Below are positions 16,886-33,818 of a DNA stretch of 59,090 nt, piece by piece (positions within the stretch are counted from its first letter, which is position 1; each line of letters begins with the position of its first letter). Under the pieces are notes generated by a model. That model worked only from the letters and a program-made list of their open reading frames with translations, made no database searches and was not told the origin of the DNA. Where the stretch lies: IMG/VR virus record IMGVR_UViG_3300005581_000015, positions 1-59,090 of that record; one strand, given 5' to 3'. A program made the translations under genes and the position numbers. This stretch comes from a virus.

Positions 16886-17244
16886 TGTCTACAGTAAACG
16901 CACCAAACTCAAAAATTGATCAAACGGTAAAAATATTTGATACCTTTTACCTGTTCGAAGCTATTGTACCTGCAATGGAGTATGAAGTCATCTACAGTTA
17001 CTTTCAGTCGGTCATGGGAACAACACAAGCCGCAGCCAACTTTACTGTCACTGTGTTTAGGATAGCACAAGAAAGTCAGACCCCGGTTATGGCAATATTT
17101 GAACAGATCAAAGGCCTTGACCAACCACAATTATCATTAACACTGGCCTACTATCTTAATGGTTTGCAAAGTTTGAGTACATTACTAGGTATTGATGCAG
17201 TGGCAACGCCAAACTACTATGCAGCCAGAAATGTTGTGGTATGA
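16885..17244 (+). CDS. Hypothetical small structural-cluster protein
   Basis: A 119-residue protein without recognised motif. Residues about 15-100 are helical with a conserved-looking FYLFEAIVPAMEYEVIYSYFQSVMG segment. The ATG overlaps the upstream stop (TAATG), and its own stop overlaps the gp4 start (ATGA), so it is translationally coupled inside the tail/head-completion operon. A virion assembly role is inferred from position only. Confidence 0.65.
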   Translation: MSTVNAPNSKIDQTVKIFDTFYLFEAIVPAMEYEVIYSYFQSVMGTTQAAANFTVTVFRIAQESQTPVMAIFEQIKGLDQPQLSLTLAYYLNGLQSLSTLLGIDAVATPNYYAARNVVV

Positions 17245-17672
17245 GCAAGTTTGCGCAAGGTGTTTTTGTCCCAACCAATCCTGACAAGTATGTAGGTCGA
17301 GGTAACATACGTTATCGCAGTGGCTGGGAACATGCTTTTATGCGATTTTGCGACACCAACGATCATATATTACAGTGGGCCAGTGAGAATGTTAGAATTC
17401 CCTATCGTCATCCACTCACAGGTAAAACTACAAACTATGTGCCAGATTTTTTGATCACGTATAGAACACGCAACAACAAAGTATGTGCTGAGCTGATTGA
17501 AATAAAACCCAAAAAACAAAGTGTACTAGAAGCAAAGATGAGCGATAGAGACCGTGCCATTGTTGCCATTAACTATGCCAAATGGGATGCCGCACAAAAG
17601 TGGTGCCGCAAACAAGGACTGGTATTTAGAGTTATTACCGAAGATCAGATCTTCCGTAACGGCAACAAGTAA
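17241..17672 (+). CDS. 4: Head completion protein (gp4-like), PD-(D/E)XK-type fold
   Basis: A 143-residue protein matching T4-like gp4 (gp50/gp4). Diagnostic segments are FAQGVFVPTNPDKYVG, YRSGWEHAFMRFCDTN, ILQWASENVRIPYRHP and YVPDFLITY followed by AELIEIKPKKQ. The last two give a D-x(n)-E-x-K arrangement typical of the restriction-endonuclease/TnsA-like fold. In T4, gp4 is needed to complete the DNA-filled head before tail joining. Length matches T4 (150). It is coupled upstream by ATGA. Confidence 0.85.
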   Translation: MSKFAQGVFVPTNPDKYVGRGNIRYRSGWEHAFMRFCDTNDHILQWASENVRIPYRHPLTGKTTNYVPDFLITYRTRNNKVCAELIEIKPKKQSVLEAKMSDRDRAIVAINYAKWDAAQKWCRKQGLVFRVITEDQIFRNGNK

Positions 17673-18207: not shown

Positions 18208-18816
18208 ATGAAAACTTTTCAAGACTACCTAGTAGAAAGTGCTAGAACATATGATTACAGAATTAAAATTGTAGGCGACACGCCCAACAATTTTATCAAA
18301 GAATTGACCAGCAAGTTTGATCAATTTGATCCAGTATCAGTGTCTAGTCCAAAAACTACTCCCATACAAAAGCAGCCTGCTGATTTTCCAGGCTTCCCCA
18401 ACGAATCAGTGACATTTTTTGATGTTAGTTTTACATACCCTGCCATTGAACCGCAGATCAAGCAGTTGGCGCAGTTGTTGGGTGTAGACCCCAATAGAGT
18501 TATCATGCCAACACAGAAGTATGATGAAAGCAATGAAACTATTGCCAAGGACATTGAAGATCAAAACAAAGATTTATTAGCTGACACAGATTTCCCTGCG
18601 CCTGACAAAGCACAAAAAGCCGCAAGCAAAGATTATGCAACTGGTCCCTACGATCATGCTGTGTTGAAAAATGCTTACCGCAGTGACTTCACTGTGGCTG
18701 GTGGTAAAACACCTGTACCAGAAACAACCAATGACTTACCAATGGGAACCAAGAGCCCAATGAGTACAATCAAGCGGCCTGCACGTCCGCTTACTGGCCG
18801 AAACCCAAGAGGATAA
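18208..18816 (+). CDS. Putative internal head protein with capsid-targeting-like N-terminus
   Basis: A 202-residue hydrophilic protein beginning MKTFQDYLVESA. This closely parallels the T4 internal-protein capsid targeting sequence MKTYQEFIAE, which is cut after the glutamate by the prohead protease gp21 (preference (L/I)-x-E). Here the cut would follow LVE at residue 10. Residues about 15-110 form a likely alpha/beta domain; the rest is a disordered, proline-rich tail. It is placed just after the small terminase under a late box. Delivery into the cell with the DNA is inference. Function of the mature protein is unknown. Confidence 0.7.
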   Translation: MKTFQDYLVESARTYDYRIKIVGDTPNNFIKELTSKFDQFDPVSVSSPKTTPIQKQPADFPGFPNESVTFFDVSFTYPAIEPQIKQLAQLLGVDPNRVIMPTQKYDESNETIAKDIEDQNKDLLADTDFPAPDKAQKAASKDYATGPYDHAVLKNAYRSDFTVAGGKTPVPETTNDLPMGTKSPMSTIKRPARPLTGRNPRG

Positions 18817-18822
18817 TTCAAA

Positions 18823-20844
18823 ATGACATTTTTTTACGACTTAAACAAAAGACTAGACGGCATACGTGCCACTCCTGAAACTACTCATAAACAATTAAAT
18901 GAGCGTGACATGAGCAAGAGCATGGACGAAAGTGCGTTCCAAGCAGCCATTGGTAAAAAGAAATATGGTGACGAAGGCATGAAAGCCTTGCAAAAAGCTG
19001 GACGCAATCACTCCAGCGACAAGACCATGGATGCCATCCGTAACAGATTTGACAAGTACGATGAAAGTCAGGGCATGGCCGATGAAGGAACTGCATTTAC
19101 CAAGGCTGTAGTTGATGCCAAACGAGACGGTATTCAACCTGGTGAGAAAATCAACGTTGGCGGAAAAGAATATCCAGTCAAAGAAGCTGCAGGCGCAGTT
19201 GACTTTGACAAAGTACTAGATGCTATTGCCGCAATGTATGGCAATGACATGTGGCAAAATGATGCCATGCAGGATCTGGCCAATGATCTTGCACAGGCTG
19301 GACCAACTGATCGCGAACTAGATTTTATCATTGCCAAAGGTCGGTTACCAAAGCGTCTAGCTAACACACAATTCTCAGCAGGTGACAATGTTCAATTTGG
19401 CGAAGCCAGTGCTCCAATGACTGCCAAGCAAAAATCATTTGCCGCATTGGCTGAACCCAAAGACAAAATCACATTTGCTGACAAAATTGCTGGCGCCAAA
19501 AAAGAAGTTGACGAAATGCTAGGCGATGTAGCCGCAGAAGCAATGAAGAAAGCACTGGGTGGCGGCATGGGTCGCAGTGCTGAAATGGAAGAAAAAGAAG
19601 ATAACAGTCCATTCACAGCACACAAGCGTCCACGCACAGAACGACCCAAAGTCGGCAGCGTTGAGCGTGGGGCATTGCATGACATTGAACACACCGCAAC
19701 CGGTCGCAAAGTAACACGTAGAGTTGATCCCAACACCGGACACAGTGTTGGTGCCGATGATGACACTCCTGCCACTGGAGAAAAGCGTGGTAAAGGACGT
19801 CCAAAGAAAGCTGGCGGCCCAAATCAAGAGCGTGTAACTGCCAAGAGTCGTAAAACAGATCGCACAGCACATGGTCAGGATGGCTTTAAGAAAGATAAAA
19901 AAGTCAAAGAAAGTGACGAGTACGGTGATGAAGGCGACATGGCCAAAGATGACTTGCGTAGTATTGCCAAGGCAGCCGCAGAACTTAATTCATTGTTAAA
20001 CGACCATGATGATTTACCAGAGTGGGTTCAGAGCAAAATTACCAAAGCTCTAGACTACATCAACACCAGTAACCAATACATGGACCAGGAAAAATCTGAT
20101 GACGACACCGGCGATGATGTTGTAATGGGTGGCGATGAAGAGCTAGACGAAAAAGCCACAAGCAAAGCACAACGTAGAGCTGCCGCAATTGCCATGCATG
20201 CTCCCAAAGGCAAACTTCAGGGCGCCAGCAAAGAAATGAGCAAGATGCCCAAGAAAGAACTAGAGAAGTTTGCCGGCACAAAAGAAAAGGGCCTGCCTAA
20301 CAAGAAAGAAAAAACTCAAGAAACAACCTCTGCAGGTTCAGTGGCAACAAGCACTGCCGCTCCAAAGGCAGGCAAAGGCGGAGTACAGTTTGGTAAAGGC
20401 ATCTATGAAAGTCTAGATCGCCAGCTAAAACAACAACTCAACGAAGAAATGAGTATCAACATGAGTATTGGCACAGACGGCCGTAAAAGCATAACTGTCA
20501 CAGCCTCAGATGAAGATGCCGACCAACTAGCGCAGATTTTGAATCTAGCAGGTTTGCAAGGTCATGATCATGGCGCAGAAGCATGCCCTTCATGCGGCCA
20601 AGCCCCATGTGGTTGCGCTGAAGTTGTTGATGAGAATGCACCAGACTATCCACAGAACATGGGCCAAACGTCAGATACTAACTTTATGACCAAGACCAAT
20701 GCTGGCGGCTTAAACAAAGAAAAATATACTGGACAGTCAACTATTCCGGTATTGGCAAGCCAAGGTGATAGACAACATGCTTACGAGAATGTTGAACTAG
20801 AGCGTAGCTTGTTTAAATTGTATCAGGAAGTTAAATCAAAATGA
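18823..20844 (+). CDS. Large charged capsid-associated protein with AT-hook-like and zinc-knuckle-like motifs
   Basis: A 673-residue, very hydrophilic, modular protein. The N-terminus has QLNERDMSKSMDESAF with KKKYGDEGMKALQKAGR and IRNRFDKYDE, a module that recurs in aquatic T4-like virion proteins. Residues about 320-330 hold RGKGRPKK, an AT-hook-like GRP core. Residues about 375-420 have DLPEWVQSKITKALDYINT, a repeated phage module. Near residue 590 is CPSCGQAPCGC, a possible zinc knuckle. Long Lys/Glu-rich disordered linkers join the modules. This suggests a DNA-contacting prohead core or internal protein, by inference. There is no catalytic motif. Confidence 0.65.
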   Translation: MTFFYDLNKRLDGIRATPETTHKQLNERDMSKSMDESAFQAAIGKKKYGDEGMKALQKAGRNHSSDKTMDAIRNRFDKYDESQGMADEGTAFTKAVVDAKRDGIQPGEKINVGGKEYPVKEAAGAVDFDKVLDAIAAMYGNDMWQNDAMQDLANDLAQAGPTDRELDFIIAKGRLPKRLANTQFSAGDNVQFGEASAPMTAKQKSFAALAEPKDKITFADKIAGAKKEVDEMLGDVAAEAMKKALGGGMGRSAEMEEKEDNSPFTAHKRPRTERPKVGSVERGALHDIEHTATGRKVTRRVDPNTGHSVGADDDTPATGEKRGKGRPKKAGGPNQERVTAKSRKTDRTAHGQDGFKKDKKVKESDEYGDEGDMAKDDLRSIAKAAAELNSLLNDHDDLPEWVQSKITKALDYINTSNQYMDQEKSDDDTGDDVVMGGDEELDEKATSKAQRRAAAIAMHAPKGKLQGASKEMSKMPKKELEKFAGTKEKGLPNKKEKTQETTSAGSVATSTAAPKAGKGGVQFGKGIYESLDRQLKQQLNEEMSINMSIGTDGRKSITVTASDEDADQLAQILNLAGLQGHDHGAEACPSCGQAPCGCAEVVDENAPDYPQNMGQTSDTNFMTKTNAGGLNKEKYTGQSTIPVLASQGDRQHAYENVELERSLFKLYQEVKSK

Positions 20845-21521
20845 AATCACTGCGTGACTATCTCAACGAAAGCGAATACGCCTACAACAACCCAGTGGTA
20901 GGCGATAATTTTGCTATCAACGTCAAAGAAGAATGTTTGTTAGAAACATACATCTGTGGCGAAACCAAAGATGGAATAGTATTACATGCTGACGATCGTT
21001 TAATGGACTTGCTTGAAAGTTATGGATATATTGGCACACAAATTGACGAAGCCACCAGCAACAGCATTGAGTTCCAAGGCCGCACAGTTGATCGTGCCAG
21101 CATAGAACTTGACGATGTAGATTCAAGTGATTATCCAGACTTTTCAGATGCATATATTAGCTACGCCACATACACTGATGGTACACCACTTGGTGATGAC
21201 GAACTAAATCAATTCAACGATCAATATTCTGACCTAGTACATGAGTTGGCATATGATAGTCTGCATGAAGATTCCATGGACGAAGCTGAATATCACGGAC
21301 GTAATGTTCCGTTAAACAAGCCCATGCAAGGTGATGTTAAAAAATCTAAAGTGTATGTTAAAAATCCCAAAGGTAACATAGTAAAAGTCAACTTTGGCGA
21401 TCCTAACATGAAAATTAAAAAATCAAACCCTGCTCGACGCAAGAGTTTTAGAGCAAGGCACAACTGTGAGAATCCTGGACCAAAAACCAGTGCTCGCTAT
21501 TGGTCATGTCGTGCTTGGTAA
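20841..21521 (+). CDS. Putative internal head protein with C-terminal RARHNC domain
   Basis: A 226-residue protein starting MKSLRDYLNESE, again like the T4 capsid targeting sequence with a possible cut after LNE. The middle is acidic. The C-terminal 80 residues (EYHGRNVPLNKPMQGDVKKS, KVYVKNPKGNIVKVNFGDPNM, then RKSFRARHNCENPGPKTSARYWSCRAW) form a conserved domain that I know from many aquatic phage structural proteins, with a C/H set that may bind metal. It is preceded by MDEA, resembling the domain junctions in the 787-residue protein. The ATG overlaps the upstream stop (ATGA). Confidence 0.7.
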   Translation: MKSLRDYLNESEYAYNNPVVGDNFAINVKEECLLETYICGETKDGIVLHADDRLMDLLESYGYIGTQIDEATSNSIEFQGRTVDRASIELDDVDSSDYPDFSDAYISYATYTDGTPLGDDELNQFNDQYSDLVHELAYDSLHEDSMDEAEYHGRNVPLNKPMQGDVKKSKVYVKNPKGNIVKVNFGDPNMKIKKSNPARRKSFRARHNCENPGPKTSARYWSCRAW

Positions 21522-21837: not shown

Positions 21838-22203
21838 ATGCGAGCACAGGAGTTTATCACCGAGCAAGACGGCACAATAGGCAAACGTAGACAAGTTGCC
21901 ACAGTGGGCCTAAATGTGTTCAGTGACAGTGAAAGATCCAATAGTGACTACACTCTTAATCGTGTGATGATGGCTGTGGCCATGGCCGACGGCTCTGGCA
22001 ATGCTTTGGACATGGATGAAAAAAGTTGGGTTGGCAAGCAACGTTCAGCACATCCTTATACCAAAGTTGAGCAAAACATGCTCAAACAGGCTTTCAAAGC
22101 CGCTGGCGCAAACTACACAGATTTAAATCACGGCGACATGGATTCTGAAGAGCATCCAGCAGTCAACACCACTAGCCCAATTCAAGGGTTCAAGGGCTAC
22201 TGA
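21838..22203 (+). CDS. Putative internal head protein, paralogue A
   Basis: A 121-residue protein starting MRAQEFITEQDG. The start at 21838 is chosen because the downstream neighbour begins with the same sequence and the preceding in-frame codons overlap the upstream gene. The first ten residues match the T4 capsid targeting type, with a cut predicted after ITE. The body includes ADGSGNALDMDEKSWVGK and ends SPIQGFKGY. The paralogue 22203-22583 has the same N-terminus and end (SPVKPFKGY) but a diverged middle. The two genes overlap at TGATG. Confidence 0.7.
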   Translation: MRAQEFITEQDGTIGKRRQVATVGLNVFSDSERSNSDYTLNRVMMAVAMADGSGNALDMDEKSWVGKQRSAHPYTKVEQNMLKQAFKAAGANYTDLNHGDMDSEEHPAVNTTSPIQGFKGY

Positions 22204-22583
22204 TGAGAGCCCGTGAGTTCATTACTGAACAAAAAGAACTGGCACCAGAGCAGGCTAACCCCATGCGTTACACTTATGTGATTCCGGGACTCAGTGCATC
22301 GGACCCTTACAACAACTATAGATTTGGTGTGGCAATGGCTAGAGCCCGTAGCGATCAGGCAACCGACGGAGTAAACCCGTTCCGACCAGATTGGAGTGCA
22401 GAAACACCGTTTGGTGAACACGGTGTAGTAGTTGGCATGAATGCTGGCATTGCTCCACTTATTGACCAAGCATTGAAAATGACCAACACACCGGGTGGTA
22501 AGAAATTAGTGTCTACTCCCAAAAGCGATGAACCTGACTTTGTAGTCACACAAAGTCCAGTCAAGCCATTTAAGGGTTATTAA
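22203..22583 (+). CDS. Putative internal head protein, paralogue B
   Basis: A 126-residue protein starting MRAREFITEQKE and ending SPVKPFKGY, clearly related to the gene before it. Middle section: YTYVIPGLSASDPYNNYRFGVAMA and GEHGVVVGMNAGIAPLIDQALK. The conserved ends with variable centres resemble fast-evolving T4 internal proteins, of which IPI blocks a host restriction enzyme. Whether these act in the same way is unknown. No separate ribosome binding site is obvious, so translation is probably coupled. Confidence 0.7.
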   Translation: MRAREFITEQKELAPEQANPMRYTYVIPGLSASDPYNNYRFGVAMARARSDQATDGVNPFRPDWSAETPFGEHGVVVGMNAGIAPLIDQALKMTNTPGGKKLVSTPKSDEPDFVVTQSPVKPFKGY

Positions 22584-22875: not shown

Positions 22876-23313
22876 ATGAAAAAACTCTTCCTGCTCTTAC
22901 TTGTATTACCCGTGCTGGCCTTTGCACAACCCAAACAACGTCCAGGCGTCACATATGATGCTGTGATCACCAGAGTCATAGACGGTGACACAGTGGGCAT
23001 TCAAGCCACATGGCTGCCAGCACCGCTCAAACCAGAACTCAGTGTTCGTGTGTACGGTGTAGACACTCCTGAAAAAGGACATCGTGCGCAGTGTGCCAGT
23101 GAAGCACAAAGAGGTGAAGCAGCCTCGGCATTTACCAAGCAACTGATTGCCAACAGTCAAAAACGACAGATTGTGCTCATGGACTGGGACAAGTATGGCG
23201 GACGTGTGCTTGGCGACGTCATCCTCAACGGCGTTAGTCTGCGCCAACAGTTAATCGCCAATGGTTTTGCTCGCGAATATTACGGCGAAGCGAAAACCAG
23301 TTGGTGTCAATAA
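22876..23313 (+). CDS. Secreted staphylococcal-type nuclease (thermonuclease)
   Basis: A 145-residue SNase-fold nuclease. Residues 1-17 are a Sec signal peptide: MKK, then a run of leucines and valines, then AFA for cleavage before QPK. The catalytic pattern is present: VIDGDTV with calcium-binding aspartates, VRVYGVDTPEKG with Arg and Glu, and DKYGGRVLGDV with the second Arg. Cys pairs near residue 74 and the C-terminus could form a disulphide, as fits periplasmic location. The product would cut DNA or RNA in the host periplasm or outside the cell. It lies between the internal-protein block and the large terminase. Confidence 0.87.
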   Translation: MKKLFLLLLVLPVLAFAQPKQRPGVTYDAVITRVIDGDTVGIQATWLPAPLKPELSVRVYGVDTPEKGHRAQCASEAQRGEAASAFTKQLIANSQKRQIVLMDWDKYGGRVLGDVILNGVSLRQQLIANGFAREYYGEAKTSWCQ

Positions 23314-25021: not shown

Positions 25022-27385
25022 ATGGCAACAAATACACCTTCAGCACAATTACACGATTTATTGGTCACGCATGACTTTGATGTAGAATCAAAAGATGCCA
25101 AACGCCCTAACACCACACCTGCGCCCGAAGATGCAGACATGTTTGTGTTTGATTTTGAGGCCAACGGAAACAACTATGGCACTGTGGTGACCTTATTTGA
25201 CAAAGACGGAACATTGAATTTATTCTACGGTGACAACGTGGGAAAATCCATGGAACCTGCAGATAAAAAAGAATGGTACGATTTTCTTTACCAGCTCACC
25301 ATGTTTGCCAAGCGCAACTGCCCGTCTTTTGAAATGCAAAACATCAGTAGATTGAAGTACACTCTCAAAGGCATTTCGGCAATCAACGAAGGATTGTTTG
25401 AAGGCTACTATGGAAACAAGAAAGTCAGCTATGCCGGCGAGCCCACAGAAGCACGATTGATGATCAAACACAATCGTCAACTGGGTGAAAATGACAAGCG
25501 TTATCGTTATGTGGAAAGTTTGTTTATTGAAACTGCAGATGATCAAAGATTTAGACTACCATTTACAAATCTAGCTGGTGGCCGCGCCATGCTAGAGCAT
25601 GTACGCCAGGGTGGCAAGCCCTACGACATTCGTGGTTGCCATATTGCAGAAATGGTGGAAGATGCCAAAGTACTAAGCAGATTTAATCGTGCTAAACAAA
25701 ATAAGATTTTTGAAGGCGAAACCAGCGAGTTAGTTGAAGCCAGCACAGCCTACTACGAAAGTGTACGCCACACTATCAAAAGTCTAGGCAACGGACGTGG
25801 ATATCAAAAGTACTTTGAGTCCTGGAGTCCAGCGCAGATCAACGAAACTGACACCTTAGTTGACTCAATAAAAGAAATGTTTATTGAACAAACACTAGAC
25901 TCTAGAATTGAGCAGGCCCTGCCAATACTGGCCAAAATAAGACAAAGAGAGACCAATATGAAAGAAGCACAAGTATTTGAAAACTGGGTCAACCAGGTAT
26001 GTGAGGGAACTTGGAGTTTGCCAGACGATCCTGACCAACGAGCTAAATTACAAAAGCTAATGAGCCAACCGTTGCTGGTTGGTCCAGACGCAACCAATGC
26101 CACTGAACAGTTGTATGACCTAGTGGGTGATGATCAGTTGTTTGATATCTTGGGCGACATAGCTGACCAGGATGGTGGCCCAGACATGAACGCCTGGGAT
26201 GATCCGCGTGTGATGGACCGCATGTATGAATTGGGCATTGATATGGCCCAGCCAGATGGTAATCAGGAGCAAGACATTGACCCTAGACAAGATCTAGATG
26301 AGTTGTCTCCTCAAACACTGGCAAGTTATGTTAAAAAATCCAATACTGATGCTAGAGATAGACTTCGTCAAGATCCAAAAAATCAATTTAAAAAAGCTGA
26401 AAAAAGAACCGCTGGTATAGGTCAAGCCATTGGCAAAATTCGTGCCACAATGGAACCTGCTACTAAACAGCAAGGTGTAGAGGAAGGTGCCATGAAGCAC
26501 CAAATGCATGCTGATGCAGACCGCATGAGTCGTGAACAATTTTGTGACAAGTATGGCAACGAGAACGGAGAATTCTGGGATAACATAAATGGCGAACTCA
26601 ACGAGGGCCAAGAAGACAGCGCAGTAGCCAGTGCTCTTACACGTCGCATCATGAGTCAACGTTTGGATTTGCTAAAGAAATATGGTCCAGTAAAAGTTAC
26701 TCAAGCAATTGATTCTGCCGCAGAATTTTTTGGTGACGTAGAAGAAATTGGTAGCAGTGACCTGAATGCCTACATGCAATATGTTGAAAAAGAACTAGGC
26801 GGCATGGCTGAGCAAGGTATAGATGAAGCTGATATGAACCGTAGAGGATTCTTAAAAGGACTTGGCGCTGCCGCAGTGGCCGGAGCCGCTGGTGTAGCAA
26901 GTGCTGATCAACAACAAGATTTAGGCAATGGCTTTGTTTTAACAACTATCAATGTTGCTGGACACACAGTTAAAGCAGTATTAGACACTGAAAGCAACAT
27001 AAGTGTTACTCTAAATCGTGGTACTAATGGATCTGCTATTATCAGAAGTCAAGCACGTTTTCTTTCAGTCAAGGATGGAAAAATTGTAGGCGCAAGCATG
27101 GATGTTGGACCGGCCACCACTGCCGCAATGAAAAAAGCTGGACTGTTAGAAAATGTAGAGCACGGTATGGAGGAAGCAATTGATCCAACAAATCCCAGAG
27201 ACTACGAGATTCCAGCTTACCAACGCAAGGAAAAAGGTATGCCACCCCTGACCCCCAGCGACATCGAAGACAAAGACAACGCCAGTCCAACCACACAACA
27301 AGGTCTAGACACACTAAAAAACAAATTGGGCATTAGAGAAAACAAAGATTTGACTAGAATTAAGCAACTTCTTCAAAAGATATAA
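25022..27385 (+). CDS. 787-residue modular virion-type protein with an internal Tat-signal segment
   Basis: A large hydrophilic protein. Residues 1-330 are a folded region of unknown family. Residues about 425-475 have ELSPQTLASYVKKSNTD with KKAEKRTAGIGQAIGKI, a module repeated in many aquatic phage head proteins. Three similar junctions follow: QGVEEG (about 484), QGIDEA (about 599) and HGMEEA (about 714). After the second is a textbook twin-arginine signal: M605, NRRGFLKG, an Ala-rich core and ASA-D. Cleavage at these Glu junctions by the prohead protease would release small domains (inference). Position after gp17 and a late box agree with a head protein. Confidence 0.65.
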   Translation: MATNTPSAQLHDLLVTHDFDVESKDAKRPNTTPAPEDADMFVFDFEANGNNYGTVVTLFDKDGTLNLFYGDNVGKSMEPADKKEWYDFLYQLTMFAKRNCPSFEMQNISRLKYTLKGISAINEGLFEGYYGNKKVSYAGEPTEARLMIKHNRQLGENDKRYRYVESLFIETADDQRFRLPFTNLAGGRAMLEHVRQGGKPYDIRGCHIAEMVEDAKVLSRFNRAKQNKIFEGETSELVEASTAYYESVRHTIKSLGNGRGYQKYFESWSPAQINETDTLVDSIKEMFIEQTLDSRIEQALPILAKIRQRETNMKEAQVFENWVNQVCEGTWSLPDDPDQRAKLQKLMSQPLLVGPDATNATEQLYDLVGDDQLFDILGDIADQDGGPDMNAWDDPRVMDRMYELGIDMAQPDGNQEQDIDPRQDLDELSPQTLASYVKKSNTDARDRLRQDPKNQFKKAEKRTAGIGQAIGKIRATMEPATKQQGVEEGAMKHQMHADADRMSREQFCDKYGNENGEFWDNINGELNEGQEDSAVASALTRRIMSQRLDLLKKYGPVKVTQAIDSAAEFFGDVEEIGSSDLNAYMQYVEKELGGMAEQGIDEADMNRRGFLKGLGAAAVAGAAGVASADQQQDLGNGFVLTTINVAGHTVKAVLDTESNISVTLNRGTNGSAIIRSQARFLSVKDGKIVGASMDVGPATTAAMKKAGLLENVEHGMEEAIDPTNPRDYEIPAYQRKEKGMPPLTPSDIEDKDNASPTTQQGLDTLKNKLGIRENKDLTRIKQLLQKI

Positions 27386-28518: not shown

Positions 28519-29178
28519 ATGTTGAGTCAAATTGATAAAACAATTTGTCCTGACAGTTGTGAGGTGGTAGAGATACCATCCTCACAACAACATGTGTTTT
28601 TAATTTTCAAAAATGCTAGTTCTTCTATACGTATGGAATGCGAACGCCAGTCAGGAAAACACTACAATGCCAGCAATGTAACAGAACTTGCAGACATTGA
28701 TGTTTATCTACGTCAGCCTCGTGCTAGATATGTGTCTGGAGTCAATACATTTTTACAAAATTTACTCAAAGAAAATTCCAAGTTAGATCGACAAACAATT
28801 TTGTTCTTTGTTAAACAATTTCATTTCTTAAATCGTCATTATCTTCCGCAGTTTCACTGGTTGTTGAACTTAAACAGATTTAACAATCATTGCAGATTGA
28901 CACTGCGCGATGTTGATACTGTTGCAACAATTACAGATTATTATGATCAGCCTGTTGAAATATTAGCTGATGATCATTTTGAAGATTTGTTACAAATTGA
29001 TAATCGGGTTGAGTTATGGTTTTTCTTAGATAACATACTTAGAGAATTAATTGGAAAAACGTTGACATTTGCAGAAATATTAGAATACATTAAACACACA
29101 CAGCCTGACACATTTGATATTATTTTCAAAGACCAATTAGCATTATTACAGCCAGCGTATGTATTGTCCAAGACTTGA
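28519..29178 (+). CDS. Sulfotransferase-like protein
   Basis: A 219-residue protein with the outline of a small sulfotransferase: HVFLIFKNASSSI near residue 30 resembles the PAPS-binding 5'-loop, and DVYLRQPRARYVSGVNTFL near residue 62 resembles the conserved R-x-P-x-x-R-(Y/F)-x-S-G segment. The C-terminal half is helical. Classical sulfotransferases move a sulfonate from PAPS to a sugar or protein. It overlaps the next gene, a radical SAM protein, by 20 bp, so the two are probably made together. The acceptor is unknown. Confidence 0.55.
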   Translation: MLSQIDKTICPDSCEVVEIPSSQQHVFLIFKNASSSIRMECERQSGKHYNASNVTELADIDVYLRQPRARYVSGVNTFLQNLLKENSKLDRQTILFFVKQFHFLNRHYLPQFHWLLNLNRFNNHCRLTLRDVDTVATITDYYDQPVEILADDHFEDLLQIDNRVELWFFLDNILRELIGKTLTFAEILEYIKHTQPDTFDIIFKDQLALLQPAYVLSKT

Positions 29179-30178
29179 TCACTTTGCAAGACTTAATCCC
29201 GAAGGAAAGATTTCAAAGTGTGGTCACATGGTCAATGCACCATTGTTTAGATCATTCAATGAAATGCAATCTAGTCAATGGCTAGAATCGGTCAAGGAAC
29301 AACTTGATAATGAAGTATGGCCCAGCGAATGCGTTAGATGTCAGACAACTGAAGAAATCAACGAAGGTAGTGTTCGGTTACAAACTATTAGTAGACACAA
29401 CAACCTGCTAGTGCATAATCCCAATTATCTAATAATTGGCGGCGTCTTAGACAATGTATGTAATAGTGCATGCCAAAGTTGTAACAGTGATTTAAGCACA
29501 AAAATTGGTAGCTTAGAAAGTGGTAAAAATTATATACAGATCAACAACGTTGAATTGTTTAATCGATTGCCCAAAGACCAAATAGTGCAATTGGATATCA
29601 ATGGTGGGGAACCAACTGCAAGTCCAAATTATCAAGCATTGTTACAATCCTTGCCAGACTCTGTAAAATATGTTAGACTTAATACAAATGCATCCCGAGT
29701 ATTACCCAATATCGAAGAACTATTACACAAAGACGTTCACTTGACTGTGACTATAAGTTTAGACGGAGTTGGCAATGTGCACGATTATGTGCGTTGGCCA
29801 ATTAAGTGGACAACTTTCATAGAGACAGTACAATCATATAAACAACTAACAACTCAGTATTCAAATTTACATTTGGATTTTTGGACAACCATACATGCTT
29901 TAAATGTAGCTGACTTGGATAACATAATTCAATTTGCAAATAACACTGACATACTTTGGTTTTTTGGCGTGCTCGAAACACCCAGTGAGTTGAGTATCCG
30001 TAATACTAATTTGCTCACTTTGTCTGCAAAGAAAAAATTATCATTGTCCAACAACGAGATATGTAGTAAACTATGTAAATTAATTGCAACTGATAACACT
30101 AATCAATCTAACATTGACGAATTCATAAACAAACAAGATTCATTGCGAAACATCAACATTTTGCAGTATAATATTTAA
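29159..30178 (+). CDS. Radical SAM protein, twitch type (copy 1)
   Basis: A 339-residue radical SAM enzyme. The iron-sulphur motif C-x3-C-x2-C is at C101, C105 and C108 (VCNSACQSC). The SAM-binding GGEP motif is in LDINGGEPTASP near residue 143, and SLDGVGNVHDYVRWP gives the usual beta-5/6 signature. An N-terminal cluster site precedes it with C3, C21, C58 and C61, as in N-terminal-twitch radical SAM proteins. The reaction is unknown; relatives in phages and islands are uncharacterised. It overlaps a sulfotransferase-like gene upstream. Confidence 0.8.
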   Translation: MYCPRLDHFARLNPEGKISKCGHMVNAPLFRSFNEMQSSQWLESVKEQLDNEVWPSECVRCQTTEEINEGSVRLQTISRHNNLLVHNPNYLIIGGVLDNVCNSACQSCNSDLSTKIGSLESGKNYIQINNVELFNRLPKDQIVQLDINGGEPTASPNYQALLQSLPDSVKYVRLNTNASRVLPNIEELLHKDVHLTVTISLDGVGNVHDYVRWPIKWTTFIETVQSYKQLTTQYSNLHLDFWTTIHALNVADLDNIIQFANNTDILWFFGVLETPSELSIRNTNLLTLSAKKKLSLSNNEICSKLCKLIATDNTNQSNIDEFINKQDSLRNINILQYNI

Positions 30179-31508: not shown

Positions 31509-31961
31509 ATGTGGTATTCTCGTGTCACACAAGATTTAGGAGTTCTCCCTGATTTCATATCGCACTATGAACATGAGCTCATCGATGCTAAAAAAGAATG
31601 TCGTATTGGCGGCATTGTTGAAAAAAATATCACGGCACTACCAGGCATAACCGAACAACGTTTTAGTCAACTACAAGAAATTGAAGCGGTGCTTAATTTT
31701 CTTAATATCCAATTACGTAAGATTCGACGTAGACACTTTCAAAAGTATTTAGAAGGGTATGCAAGGACATTAACTAGTAGAGATGCTGAAAAATATGTTG
31801 ACGGTGAAGATGAAGTAATTGACTTTGAAACATTAATCAACGAAGTTGCGTTATTGCGCAATAAATGGTTGAGCATTATGAAAGGCCTTGACACCAAGCA
31901 ATGGCAAATGGGCCATATTGTTCGTTTACGTACTGCAGGAATGGAAGATATACAAGTATGA
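31509..31961 (+). CDS. uvsY: UvsY recombination mediator
   Basis: A 150-residue protein like UvsY of aquatic T4-like phages. Diagnostic features are RRRHFQKYLEGYARTLTSRDAEKYVDGED and EVALLRNKWLSIMKGLDTKQWQMGHI, followed by VRLRTAGMEDIQV. UvsY loads UvsX onto gp32-coated ssDNA. T4 UvsY is 137 residues. The gene order uvsX-acidic ORF-uvsY is compact, and its stop overlaps the kdsA start as ATGA. Confidence 0.85.
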   Translation: MWYSRVTQDLGVLPDFISHYEHELIDAKKECRIGGIVEKNITALPGITEQRFSQLQEIEAVLNFLNIQLRKIRRRHFQKYLEGYARTLTSRDAEKYVDGEDEVIDFETLINEVALLRNKWLSIMKGLDTKQWQMGHIVRLRTAGMEDIQV

Positions 31962-32707
31962 AGTTAATTCTCGGGCCTTGTGCCATTGAAAGTTGGGAAC
32001 ATGCCAAGCTCATGGTAAATTTGATATTGGAATCTATTCAAGATTTTGATGTGGACTTTTACTATAAAAGCAGTTTTGATAAAGCCAATAGATCTAGTCT
32101 TGACAGCGGTCGAGGCGTGGGATTAGAGCAAGGCGCTGAAATTCTACAACGTGTTCGGGAAGATTTTAAAGTTAAAACGTTGACTGATGTTCACGAAACT
32201 TGGCAGTGCGATCGCCTCAAAAGAGCAGTAGATGTATTACAGATCCCTGCTTTTCTTTGTAGACAAACTGATCTTTTATTAGCTGCCGGTGAAGCAACAC
32301 ACAGTGTTAATGTAAAAAAAGGACAGTTTCTTGCCCCCTGGGATATGAAAAATGTCGTAGACAAACTACCAAACAACGATGTTTGGATCACAGAGCGAGG
32401 AACTAGTTTTGGCTATAATACTTTGGTGGTAGACTATCGTGGTCTAGTAACCATGGCTGAGTGGGGCCGCCCAGTTATTTTTGATGCCACCCACAGTGTT
32501 CAACAACCGGGTGGCCTGGGTAAATCTTCAGGTGGTCAGAGACAATTTGTGGAACCTTTGGCACAAGCAGCCGTGGCAGTTGGCGTAGATGGACTATTCA
32601 TTGAGACACACGACTGCCCCGACCGTGCCCCTAGCGACGGTCCAAATCAAATTCCTGTAACAGAATTAAAAAAAATATTGCAGAATATTTTAAAATTTAA
32701 CAAATGA
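31958..32707 (+). CDS. kdsA: Kdo-8-phosphate synthase (KdsA), metal-dependent type
   Basis: A 249-residue KdsA, which condenses phosphoenolpyruvate with arabinose-5-phosphate to 3-deoxy-D-manno-octulosonate-8-phosphate for lipopolysaccharide or capsule. Motifs are GPCAIES, KSSFDKANRSS, TDVHE, IPAFLCRQTDLL, VKKGQFLAPWDMKNV, ERGTSFGYN and ATHSVQQPGG. The Cys in GPC, the His in ATHS, and the Glu and Asp near FIETHDCPDRAPSD are the metal ligands of the Aquifex-like class; E. coli KdsA has Asn at the Cys position. The start is the ATG overlapping the uvsY stop. It is an auxiliary metabolic gene inside a recombination operon. Confidence 0.93.
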   Translation: MKLILGPCAIESWEHAKLMVNLILESIQDFDVDFYYKSSFDKANRSSLDSGRGVGLEQGAEILQRVREDFKVKTLTDVHETWQCDRLKRAVDVLQIPAFLCRQTDLLLAAGEATHSVNVKKGQFLAPWDMKNVVDKLPNNDVWITERGTSFGYNTLVVDYRGLVTMAEWGRPVIFDATHSVQQPGGLGKSSGGQRQFVEPLAQAAVAVGVDGLFIETHDCPDRAPSDGPNQIPVTELKKILQNILKFNK

Positions 32708-32717
32708 AAGAACAAGT

Positions 32718-33818
32718 ATGAGTTATCTATTTACAAGTGAAAGTGTGTCGGAAGGACATCCAGACAAAGTAGCAGACGCTATCAGTGATGCTGTGCTAGA
32801 TTTGTTTATGGCACAAAAAAACCCAGCACTACGTTGTGCCTGTGAGACATTGGTTACTACTAATAGGGTTGTGGTAGCTGGAGAGTACAAAGGCATGGTG
32901 CCCACCGACGCAATCAATGCAGCCATTAGGCGTGTTATCCGTGATGTGGGCTACGAACAAACGGGATTCAACTGGGGCACTGTAGAAATTATCAACTTGT
33001 TGCACGGACAAAGTGCAGACATTGCGTTAGGCACAGATAACTTTGGTGCTGGAGACCAAGGATTGATGTTTGGATATGCTTGCAACGAAACTGATGTGCA
33101 CATGCCCAATGCAATCTATTGGAGCCATAGAATTGTTGAAGAACTTGCTAAAATTCGCAAAGCAGGCACAGTAGTTTGGCTAGAGCCAGATGCCAAGAGT
33201 CAAGTTACATTTGAATACAATGATGATGGTACACCGCGCCGTATTGCCAAAGTTGTTTGTAGTACACAACATGCAGAAAGTGCAAGTATTGAACAAGTTC
33301 GAATGGTGGTAGAAAACATTATTCGCGGAGTTTTACCTGAAAGGTTTGTAGACAGTGATACTGAATTTTTTATTAATCCTACTGGCAGGTTTGTTATTGG
33401 CGGACCTGATGGCGATACAGGTCTTACCGGTCGCAAGATTATTGTTGATACTTACGGCGGCTATAGTCCTCATGGAGGTGGTGCTTTTTCCGGCAAGGAT
33501 CCTACTAAGGTAGATCGCAGTGCTGCCTATATGATGCGATACATTGCCAAGAACATTGTAGCAAGTGATCGAGCTAACTGGGCCACAGTGCAGATCAGTT
33601 ACGCAATTGGACTAGCACAGCCCATGAGTTTCTACGTGGAAACAGCAGATGCTCAGCAAGGGCGTGACCTAACTAAGTGGATTACGGACAATGTCGACTT
33701 GACACCCAAGGGCATTATTGATCGCTTTGACTTATTCCGCCCCATCTACAGCGCAACAACCAACTATGGGCATTTTGGCAAAGCAAACATGCCCTGGGAA
33801 AAACTAGACCTGTTCTAA
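32718..33818 (+). CDS. metK: S-adenosylmethionine synthetase (MetK)
   Basis: A 366-residue MetK, near the bacterial length of about 384. Motifs: FTSESVSEGHPDKVADAISDA at the N-terminus, GAGDQGLMFGYAC, and GGAFSGKDPTKVDRS. It makes SAM from methionine and ATP. A phage copy would raise SAM for the three radical SAM proteins and at least four SAM methyltransferases encoded in this window (inference). It follows kdsA with a 10-nt gap. All catalytic residues I can recall appear to be present. Confidence 0.95.
   Translation: MSYLFTSESVSEGHPDKVADAISDAVLDLFMAQKNPALRCACETLVTTNRVVVAGEYKGMVPTDAINAAIRRVIRDVGYEQTGFNWGTVEIINLLHGQSADIALGTDNFGAGDQGLMFGYACNETDVHMPNAIYWSHRIVEELAKIRKAGTVVWLEPDAKSQVTFEYNDDGTPRRIAKVVCSTQHAESASIEQVRMVVENIIRGVLPERFVDSDTEFFINPTGRFVIGGPDGDTGLTGRKIIVDTYGGYSPHGGGAFSGKDPTKVDRSAAYMMRYIAKNIVASDRANWATVQISYAIGLAQPMSFYVETADAQQGRDLTKWITDNVDLTPKGIIDRFDLFRPIYSATTNYGHFGKANMPWEKLDLF

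Follow-up and report, generated by a model that had tools for sequence, protein, structure and literature searches.

A 59,090-nucleotide stretch of viral DNA (IMG/VR record IMGVR_UViG_3300005581_000015; "the window" below means this whole stretch) encodes a modular head-type protein of 787 amino acids, recognized from its open reading frame (ORF) and gene order (25022..27385, + strand). The protein carries a twin-arginine (Tat) export signal deep in its interior, directly behind a site of the type cut by prohead proteases. We are nearly certain that this internal signal is real. The best explanation of the sequence comparisons reported here is that the ORF represents one member of a family of modular, presumably head-packaged polyproteins in large T4-type phages. 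We propose that a cut during head maturation would free the Tat signal and that the injected fragment would then be exported, a model for which, taken as a whole, we regard the case for and against as evenly balanced.

The 59-kb record encodes a T4-type sheath, tube and terminase, with the terminase sharing 52% identity with its counterpart in the PA5oct group of jumbo phages. Genes are arranged in the order terminase, ORF 25022-27385, gp32-like SSB and UvsX/RecA. The same order is found in Phosso, Atu_ph07 and Vibrio phage 2.275.O, and PA5oct has one extra structural gene between terminase and gp278. The N-terminal head domain of the window ORF (residues ~1-410; 25022..26251, +) matches PHROG 13484 ("virion structural protein", category head and packaging), and it matches PA5oct gp278, whose record notes ESI-MS/MS, both by sequence and by syntenic position. 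An earlier reading of the DNA alone (the preliminary description) had called the product a phage head protein, and this homology and synteny back that label.

Two modules follow the head domain, each recognized by protein comparison. Module A (residues 421-489; 26282..26488, +) closes with the junction QGVEE|G and is 87% identical to a module of the L015-L019 proteins, which start differently and are otherwise unrelated. The L015-L020 ORFs combine Module A with a domain that bears a cysteine-rich motif of the CKVDCFAMKGG type. Module B (residues ~518-602; 26573..26827, +) has counterparts in other polyproteins (L121 and L175), at 51-53% identity. Next is the junction QGIDE|A (residues 598-603; 26813..26830, +), in which a prohead-protease cut is predicted after E602 (26827) on the basis of the T4 gp21 motif L/I-X-E. 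The Tat signal (residues 603-628; 26828..26905, +), assigned by profiles and inspection, consists of an n-region (ADMN), the two arginines (codons at 26840-26845, +), GFLKG, an Ala-rich core and an ASA c-region; residues 598-628 read QGIDEADMNRRGFLKGLGAAAVAGAAGVASA and are followed by DQQ. Behind the signal lies a passenger domain that we call DLGNGF (residues 629-712; 26906..27157, +), with six strands and one helix, and with homologues that have or lack a Tat signal. A third junction, HGMEE|A (residues 714-719; 27161..27178, +), is predicted to free the C-terminal end of the passenger, and a C-terminal tail (residues 719-787; 27176..27382, +) ends in DLTRIKQLLQKI.

The signal has the expected parts of a Tat signal peptide, namely a twin-arginine motif followed by FLK (RRGFLKG, residues 607-613) and, after the core, a signal peptidase AxA site (ASA|D, at residues 626-628). 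It scores 21.9 bits with the NCBIfam model TIGR01409, against a curated cut-off of 16.7. The Pfam TAT_signal family PF10518 matches residues 604-624 (E 1.2e-4) at a borderline 22.3 bits against a cut-off of 22.7, and reaches 23.4 bits "with its neighbours" in a genome-wide search. Its position is atypical: 604 residues precede M605, and the predicted cut would be needed to make the signal N-terminal. The preliminary description had located a Tat signal in this frame, directly after QGIDEA, and it was right on both counts. An assembly artefact was rejected as the source of the internal signal because a second viral contig (L002/L004) holds a 100% identical ORF. Chance was also rejected, because the module recurs in 40 distinct copies, 37 of them behind an LxE motif.

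The joints of these polyproteins are prohead-protease-type sites, that is, [LIV]xE followed by G, A, D, I or V. In long phage ORFs, module borders are marked by a 15-mer, GGTGTGGCGGAAGGC, that encodes GVAEG and that we detected in at least 120 stretches from many viral contigs (for example, G006 and G010). Some contigs have up to 8-10 copies (at most one mismatch), often identical in DNA sequence. The 15-mer is absent from the window and from four cultured phages, and a reversed-pattern control gave no matches. These repeated, DNA-identical 15-mers suggest that modules may be shuffled by recombination at junction DNA. Because a Tat signal directly follows about 1% of 101 distinct junctions, among the matches listed, we regard the junction as a general joint and the Tat signal as a specific type of module.

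To compare Tat modules, we searched viral contigs with a DNA pattern for RRGFL[KR]G.GAAA, which yielded 39 stretches; with later finds, 40 distinct modules were compared. Nearly all of the 39 stretches sit inside longer ORFs, after sequences such as QGVAEGSLEEID, VDEADMS, IDEDIS and ELDEIN, and for 37 of the 40 modules the first Met of the ORF lies over 40 residues away. Copies with 77-80% identity to the module of the window follow N-termini that are otherwise unrelated (L003/L104 and L102). All 40 modules match TIGR01409 at E<0.01; an AxA site is present in 33, and the remaining seven lack one in the expected place. When the arginine positions were left free in the search, RR was still found in 19 of 19 contigs, and a second such search gave 17 of 17. 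The arginine codons are mostly the same (CGT AGA), and differ from the common ones in at least eight of the 40 modules. Comparison of distant copies of the signal shows saturation at synonymous sites but a dN of ~0.1-0.4 (pairs involving L105 were left out of this comparison). As judged from these data, the Tat signal is under strong purifying selection. The hydrophobic stretch might instead be a relic that moved with shuffled modules and was never exposed or used. Modules clearly do shuffle, given the many copies of the GVAEG-coding 15-mer in single contigs, but a relic fits poorly with arginines that are invariant when left free, with strong purifying selection over saturated synonymous sites, and with the envelope-type passengers described below, and we consider it very unlikely.

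The position of the signal relative to the junction is also conserved. A [LIVM]xE motif ends 3-5 residues before RR in 37 of the 40 modules (I-D-E|A at 600-603 in the window), although the copies share ancestry at the DNA level, so these counts are not independent and the fraction is descriptive rather than an independent test. At random positions of the same ORFs, this spacing of LxE occurred on average 2.3 times and at most 10 times (20,000 draws). Several different types of junction all keep LxE before the Tat signal. The composite E[IV][DN]RRGFL[KR]G.GA was not matched exactly anywhere in 84,980 genomes of bacteria and archaea. The plain Tat signal has 11 matches in bacterial genomes, each compatible with an N-terminal signal, and none of the 11 is preceded by LxE at that spacing (Fisher 8e-9 against the viral modules, whose copies are related by descent).

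One viral locus, L031, is a stand-alone gene with a Tat signal. A GGAG precedes its ATG by 8 nt, and the passenger that it encodes is a relative of the one found internally in L055. This free-standing version of another passenger family, together with the ATG present at M605 (26834), would fit a proposal of the preliminary description, namely that internal initiation yields a separate Tat-exported protein of 183 amino acids (26834-27382). However, the ATG lacks a well-placed Shine-Dalgarno sequence, the nearest candidate being an AAGG 16 nt upstream, and the equivalent residue is Ile, Val or Leu, not Met, in 34 of the 40 modules. The proposal is therefore highly improbable for the window ORF, and the missing Met led us to reject it as a general explanation of the modules.

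Because the junction has a T4-gp21-type motif (I-D-E|A) and the arrangement is general in related phages, the best reading is that cleavage would expose an N-terminal Tat signal. The preliminary description had raised this idea; the arrangement that it implies is present, and the cut itself is a prediction. T4 gp21 cuts after E in L/I-X-E (PMC9026906), and T4 internal proteins are packed by means of short N-terminal capsid targeting sequences and ejected into the host with Alt (PMC9026906, PMC3012670). We propose that one recurrent type of module opens with a Tat signal in which a [LIV]xE-type site has taken the place of the initiator region. In the uncut polyprotein, the signal would be internal and probably silent, so that the protein could enter the prohead. 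The window ORF, which has no capsid-targeting-like start, would be packed in the role of a head protein, as its N-terminal domain suggests. During head maturation, a T4-gp21-type (S77) protease would cut QGIDE|A and HGMEE|A, leaving a fragment A603-E718 with the Tat signal at its N-terminus (ADMNRRGFLKG). This fragment would pass into the host cytoplasm together with the DNA, where TatBC would recognize it; it would then be exported, and a cut at ASA|D would release the DLGNGF domain into the periplasm. Every step after synthesis of the polyprotein (cleavage, packaging, injection and export) is one that we infer. We consider cleavage at the junction probable, and for injection and export we see about an even chance.

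An alternative is that the signal works uncut in the newly made polyprotein, such that the C-terminal part would be exported, the N-terminal part would stay in the cytoplasm, and the virion would be uninvolved. Internal Tat signals occur in nature, as in the Streptomyces Rieske protein (PMC13186574), and L031, with its own start and Shine-Dalgarno sequence, makes export of freshly made protein plausible. We nonetheless consider this alternative unlikely, in that it leaves unexplained the LxE motif that ends 3-5 residues before RR in 37 of the 40 modules, the second junction that often closes passengers, and the occurrence of head domains and capsid-targeting-like N-termini on the same ORFs.

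With respect to these N-termini, capsid-targeting-like starts, as called by a loose regular expression, were found in 47 of 96 ORFs with GVAE-type junctions versus 147 of 1016 other ORFs (Fisher p 6e-14). The window ORF starts with MATNTPSAQLHD, which does not resemble an N-terminal capsid targeting sequence; many other ORFs with Tat modules do start in this manner. Elsewhere in the window, four ORFs have a capsid-targeting-like start: a head-type ORF at 18208..18816 (+; MKTFQDYLVESA), which is the one of the four that matches a PHROG virion structural protein (PHROG 14802), and ORFs at 20841..21521 (+; MKSLRDYLNESE), 21838..22203 (+; MRAQEFITEQ) and 22203..22583 (+; MRAREFITEQ). Three ORFs with Tat modules (L033, L035 and L045) have, by eye, a nucleotidyltransferase-like start (MPGGFHPxHAGH or MNPPTIGH).

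A candidate protease is encoded by related phages. Four large related contigs, three of them with Tat modules, encode both a Gp23 capsid protein and a protease of the S77 family (E 2e-26 to 4e-28), and these capsid proteins have an LxE|S site (LAE|S-type) at the position where, by analogy, the prosequence is expected to end. Neither an S77 protease gene nor a Gp23 gene was found within the 59-kb window, which is possibly an incomplete fragment. At some junctions, the protease would have to accept Ile or Val after Glu. The Tat module was not found by a PF10518 search of cultured PA5oct, Phosso, Atu_ph07 and Vibrio phage 2.275.O. A tblastn search of 50,697 phage records with the module and with the junction-plus-signal peptide gave no relevant match, although the low-complexity filter may hide a short query.

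The passengers behind the signals fall into at least 18 groups (blastp). Next to a Tat signal, we found TolA/TonB C-termini three times (L035, L047 and L051; PF13103, 3e-18 to 1e-17; TIGR02794, 7.6e-13) and M48 peptidases twice (L025 and L057). Judging by these domain matches, all passengers with a recognizable domain beside the Tat signal are of envelope types. GP88 and DUF6321 domains occur further downstream in some ORFs, apart from the signal, and are not informative on export; in L039 and L056, GP88 (PF17338) lies behind the Tat passenger. About a dozen Sec-like signals directly follow a junction ([LIV]xE|GWK...), and L063 has a lipoprotein-like signal behind a junction, with the lipobox LSGC; both kinds were called by visual inspection and simple rules rather than with SignalP. 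Loci with Sec-like junction signals are L022, L032, L052, L055, L116, L170, L197, L214, L230 and L235. GH19 domains follow two Sec-like signals, in one case with LysM. TolA/TonB C-termini and GH19/LysM domains act in the periplasm. These signal-bearing passengers (TolA/TonB C-termini, M48 and GH19/LysM) suggest modification of the envelope early in infection.

These data also bear on the possibility that the injected fragment docks at TatBC without export, as a membrane anchor or Tat inhibitor, with the passenger acting at the inner membrane face. Such docking would accommodate the seven copies without an AxA site and the occurrence of the passenger without a Tat signal in orthologous head proteins. 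We nevertheless find it distinctly unlikely, given that 33 of the 40 copies do have the site, that TolA/TonB C-termini and GH19/LysM are periplasmic types, and that Sec-like and lipoprotein-like signals occupy the same place. Cleavage in the head followed by export of the injected fragment accounts for the LxE spacing together with the invariant RR better than any of the rival explanations. More generally, large T4-type phages may pack polyproteins that contain silent Tat, Sec and lipoprotein-type signals, unmask these in the capsid by means of the prohead protease, inject the fragments, and rely on the export machinery of the host to place envelope-modifying domains in the periplasm before phage gene expression, a tentative extension that we hold to be somewhat on the doubtful side of even.

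The DLGNGF domain of the window has ~84 residues and gave a confident AlphaFold model (pLDDT 90.5, pTM 0.81), with no structural match in PDB or BFVD better than E 0.07. No Pfam family matches this passenger, and Pfam gave almost nothing for other modules in eight large junction ORFs. In a pattern search based on the passenger, with the signal excluded, the domain was found behind RR signals in seven distinct proteins and without any Tat signal in L107, L109-L113, L114, L115 and L119. Two of the latter (L109 and L119) also share the head domain of the window ORF, at 29% identity, and therefore the domain does not always need export. In L055, a related domain (TDLGNDF) lies behind a Sec-like signal. 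From this distribution, it would appear either that the lineage of the window gained the Tat signal or that the proteins without it have lost it. Occurrence of the domain without a Tat signal lowers our confidence in periplasmic delivery as its sole or original role.

The components of the proposed mechanism (T4 internal proteins, gp21 sites, Tat signals, and the internal Tat signal of the Rieske protein) are already known. The T4 proteins IPI, IPII, IPIII and Alt are likewise head-packaged, diverse, cut at L/I-X-E by an S77-family protease and injected with the DNA (PMC9026906, PMC3012670), whereas for the window ORF the cut and injection are predicted. Where the role of a T4 internal protein is known, it is exerted in the cytoplasm, and none of the T4 internal proteins has been described with an export signal exposed by a cut. 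They start with a capsid targeting sequence, whereas the window ORF has none and related ORFs have a similar start; moreover, unlike them, polyproteins of the window type combine several junctions and modules in one ORF. Bacterial Tat signal peptides (TIGR01409, PF10518) share with the window the RRGFLKG motif, the Ala-rich core, the AxA site and an above-cut-off TIGR01409 score, but the window signal lies hundreds of residues inside its protein, with a protease-type site where the start Met would be. The Streptomyces Rieske protein (PMC13186574) also has a Tat signal that is not N-terminal and that sends a C-terminal domain across the membrane, as predicted here; however, that signal is part of a polytopic membrane protein, where no cleavage releases it, whereas the window signal follows soluble head modules and a protease-type site. 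The polyvalent proteins of phages and plasmids (PMC5512222) are likewise multidomain, are predicted to be packaged and injected, and have been proposed to be processed to release domains. Their domain content differs from that of the polyproteins described here, and neither signal peptides nor twin-arginine nor the periplasm comes up in the text of that paper (PMC5512222).

A search of the open-access literature brought up no description of injected phage proteins that bear Tat or Sec signals, nor of prohead processing that exposes an export signal on a virion-packed polyprotein. There is a fair chance that the mechanism is new. To our knowledge, those phage internal proteins for which a role has been described either work in the cytoplasm of the host or assist the passage of DNA across the envelope. 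If the proposal is correct, virion-borne proteins that enter with the DNA and are then exported would constitute a new route by which a phage could change the host envelope as soon as infection begins, with possible targets that include receptor or Tol function, the cell wall, and the exclusion of other phages. The proposal would also solve a sorting problem, in that the signal would be kept inactive up to the point at which the head has closed around the protein.

Several other genes in the window merit mention. At 22876-23313 (+), a staphylococcal-nuclease homologue (PF00565, E 3e-12) has, by eye, an N-terminal Sec-type signal peptide, and could be a phage enzyme that acts in the periplasm. 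The head-closure protein at 17241-17672 (+; PHROG 218) also matches the N-terminal domain of TnsA-like endonucleases (PF08722, E 7e-22). A radical SAM-like protein at 29159-30178 (+), for which the PF04055 match is below cut-off, adjoins recombination genes. Finally, the region 31901-33818 (+) represents metabolic genes in a phage; it encodes a DAHP synthetase I family enzyme (PF00793; possibly, by eye, a Kdo-8-phosphate synthase), followed by a full S-adenosylmethionine synthetase.
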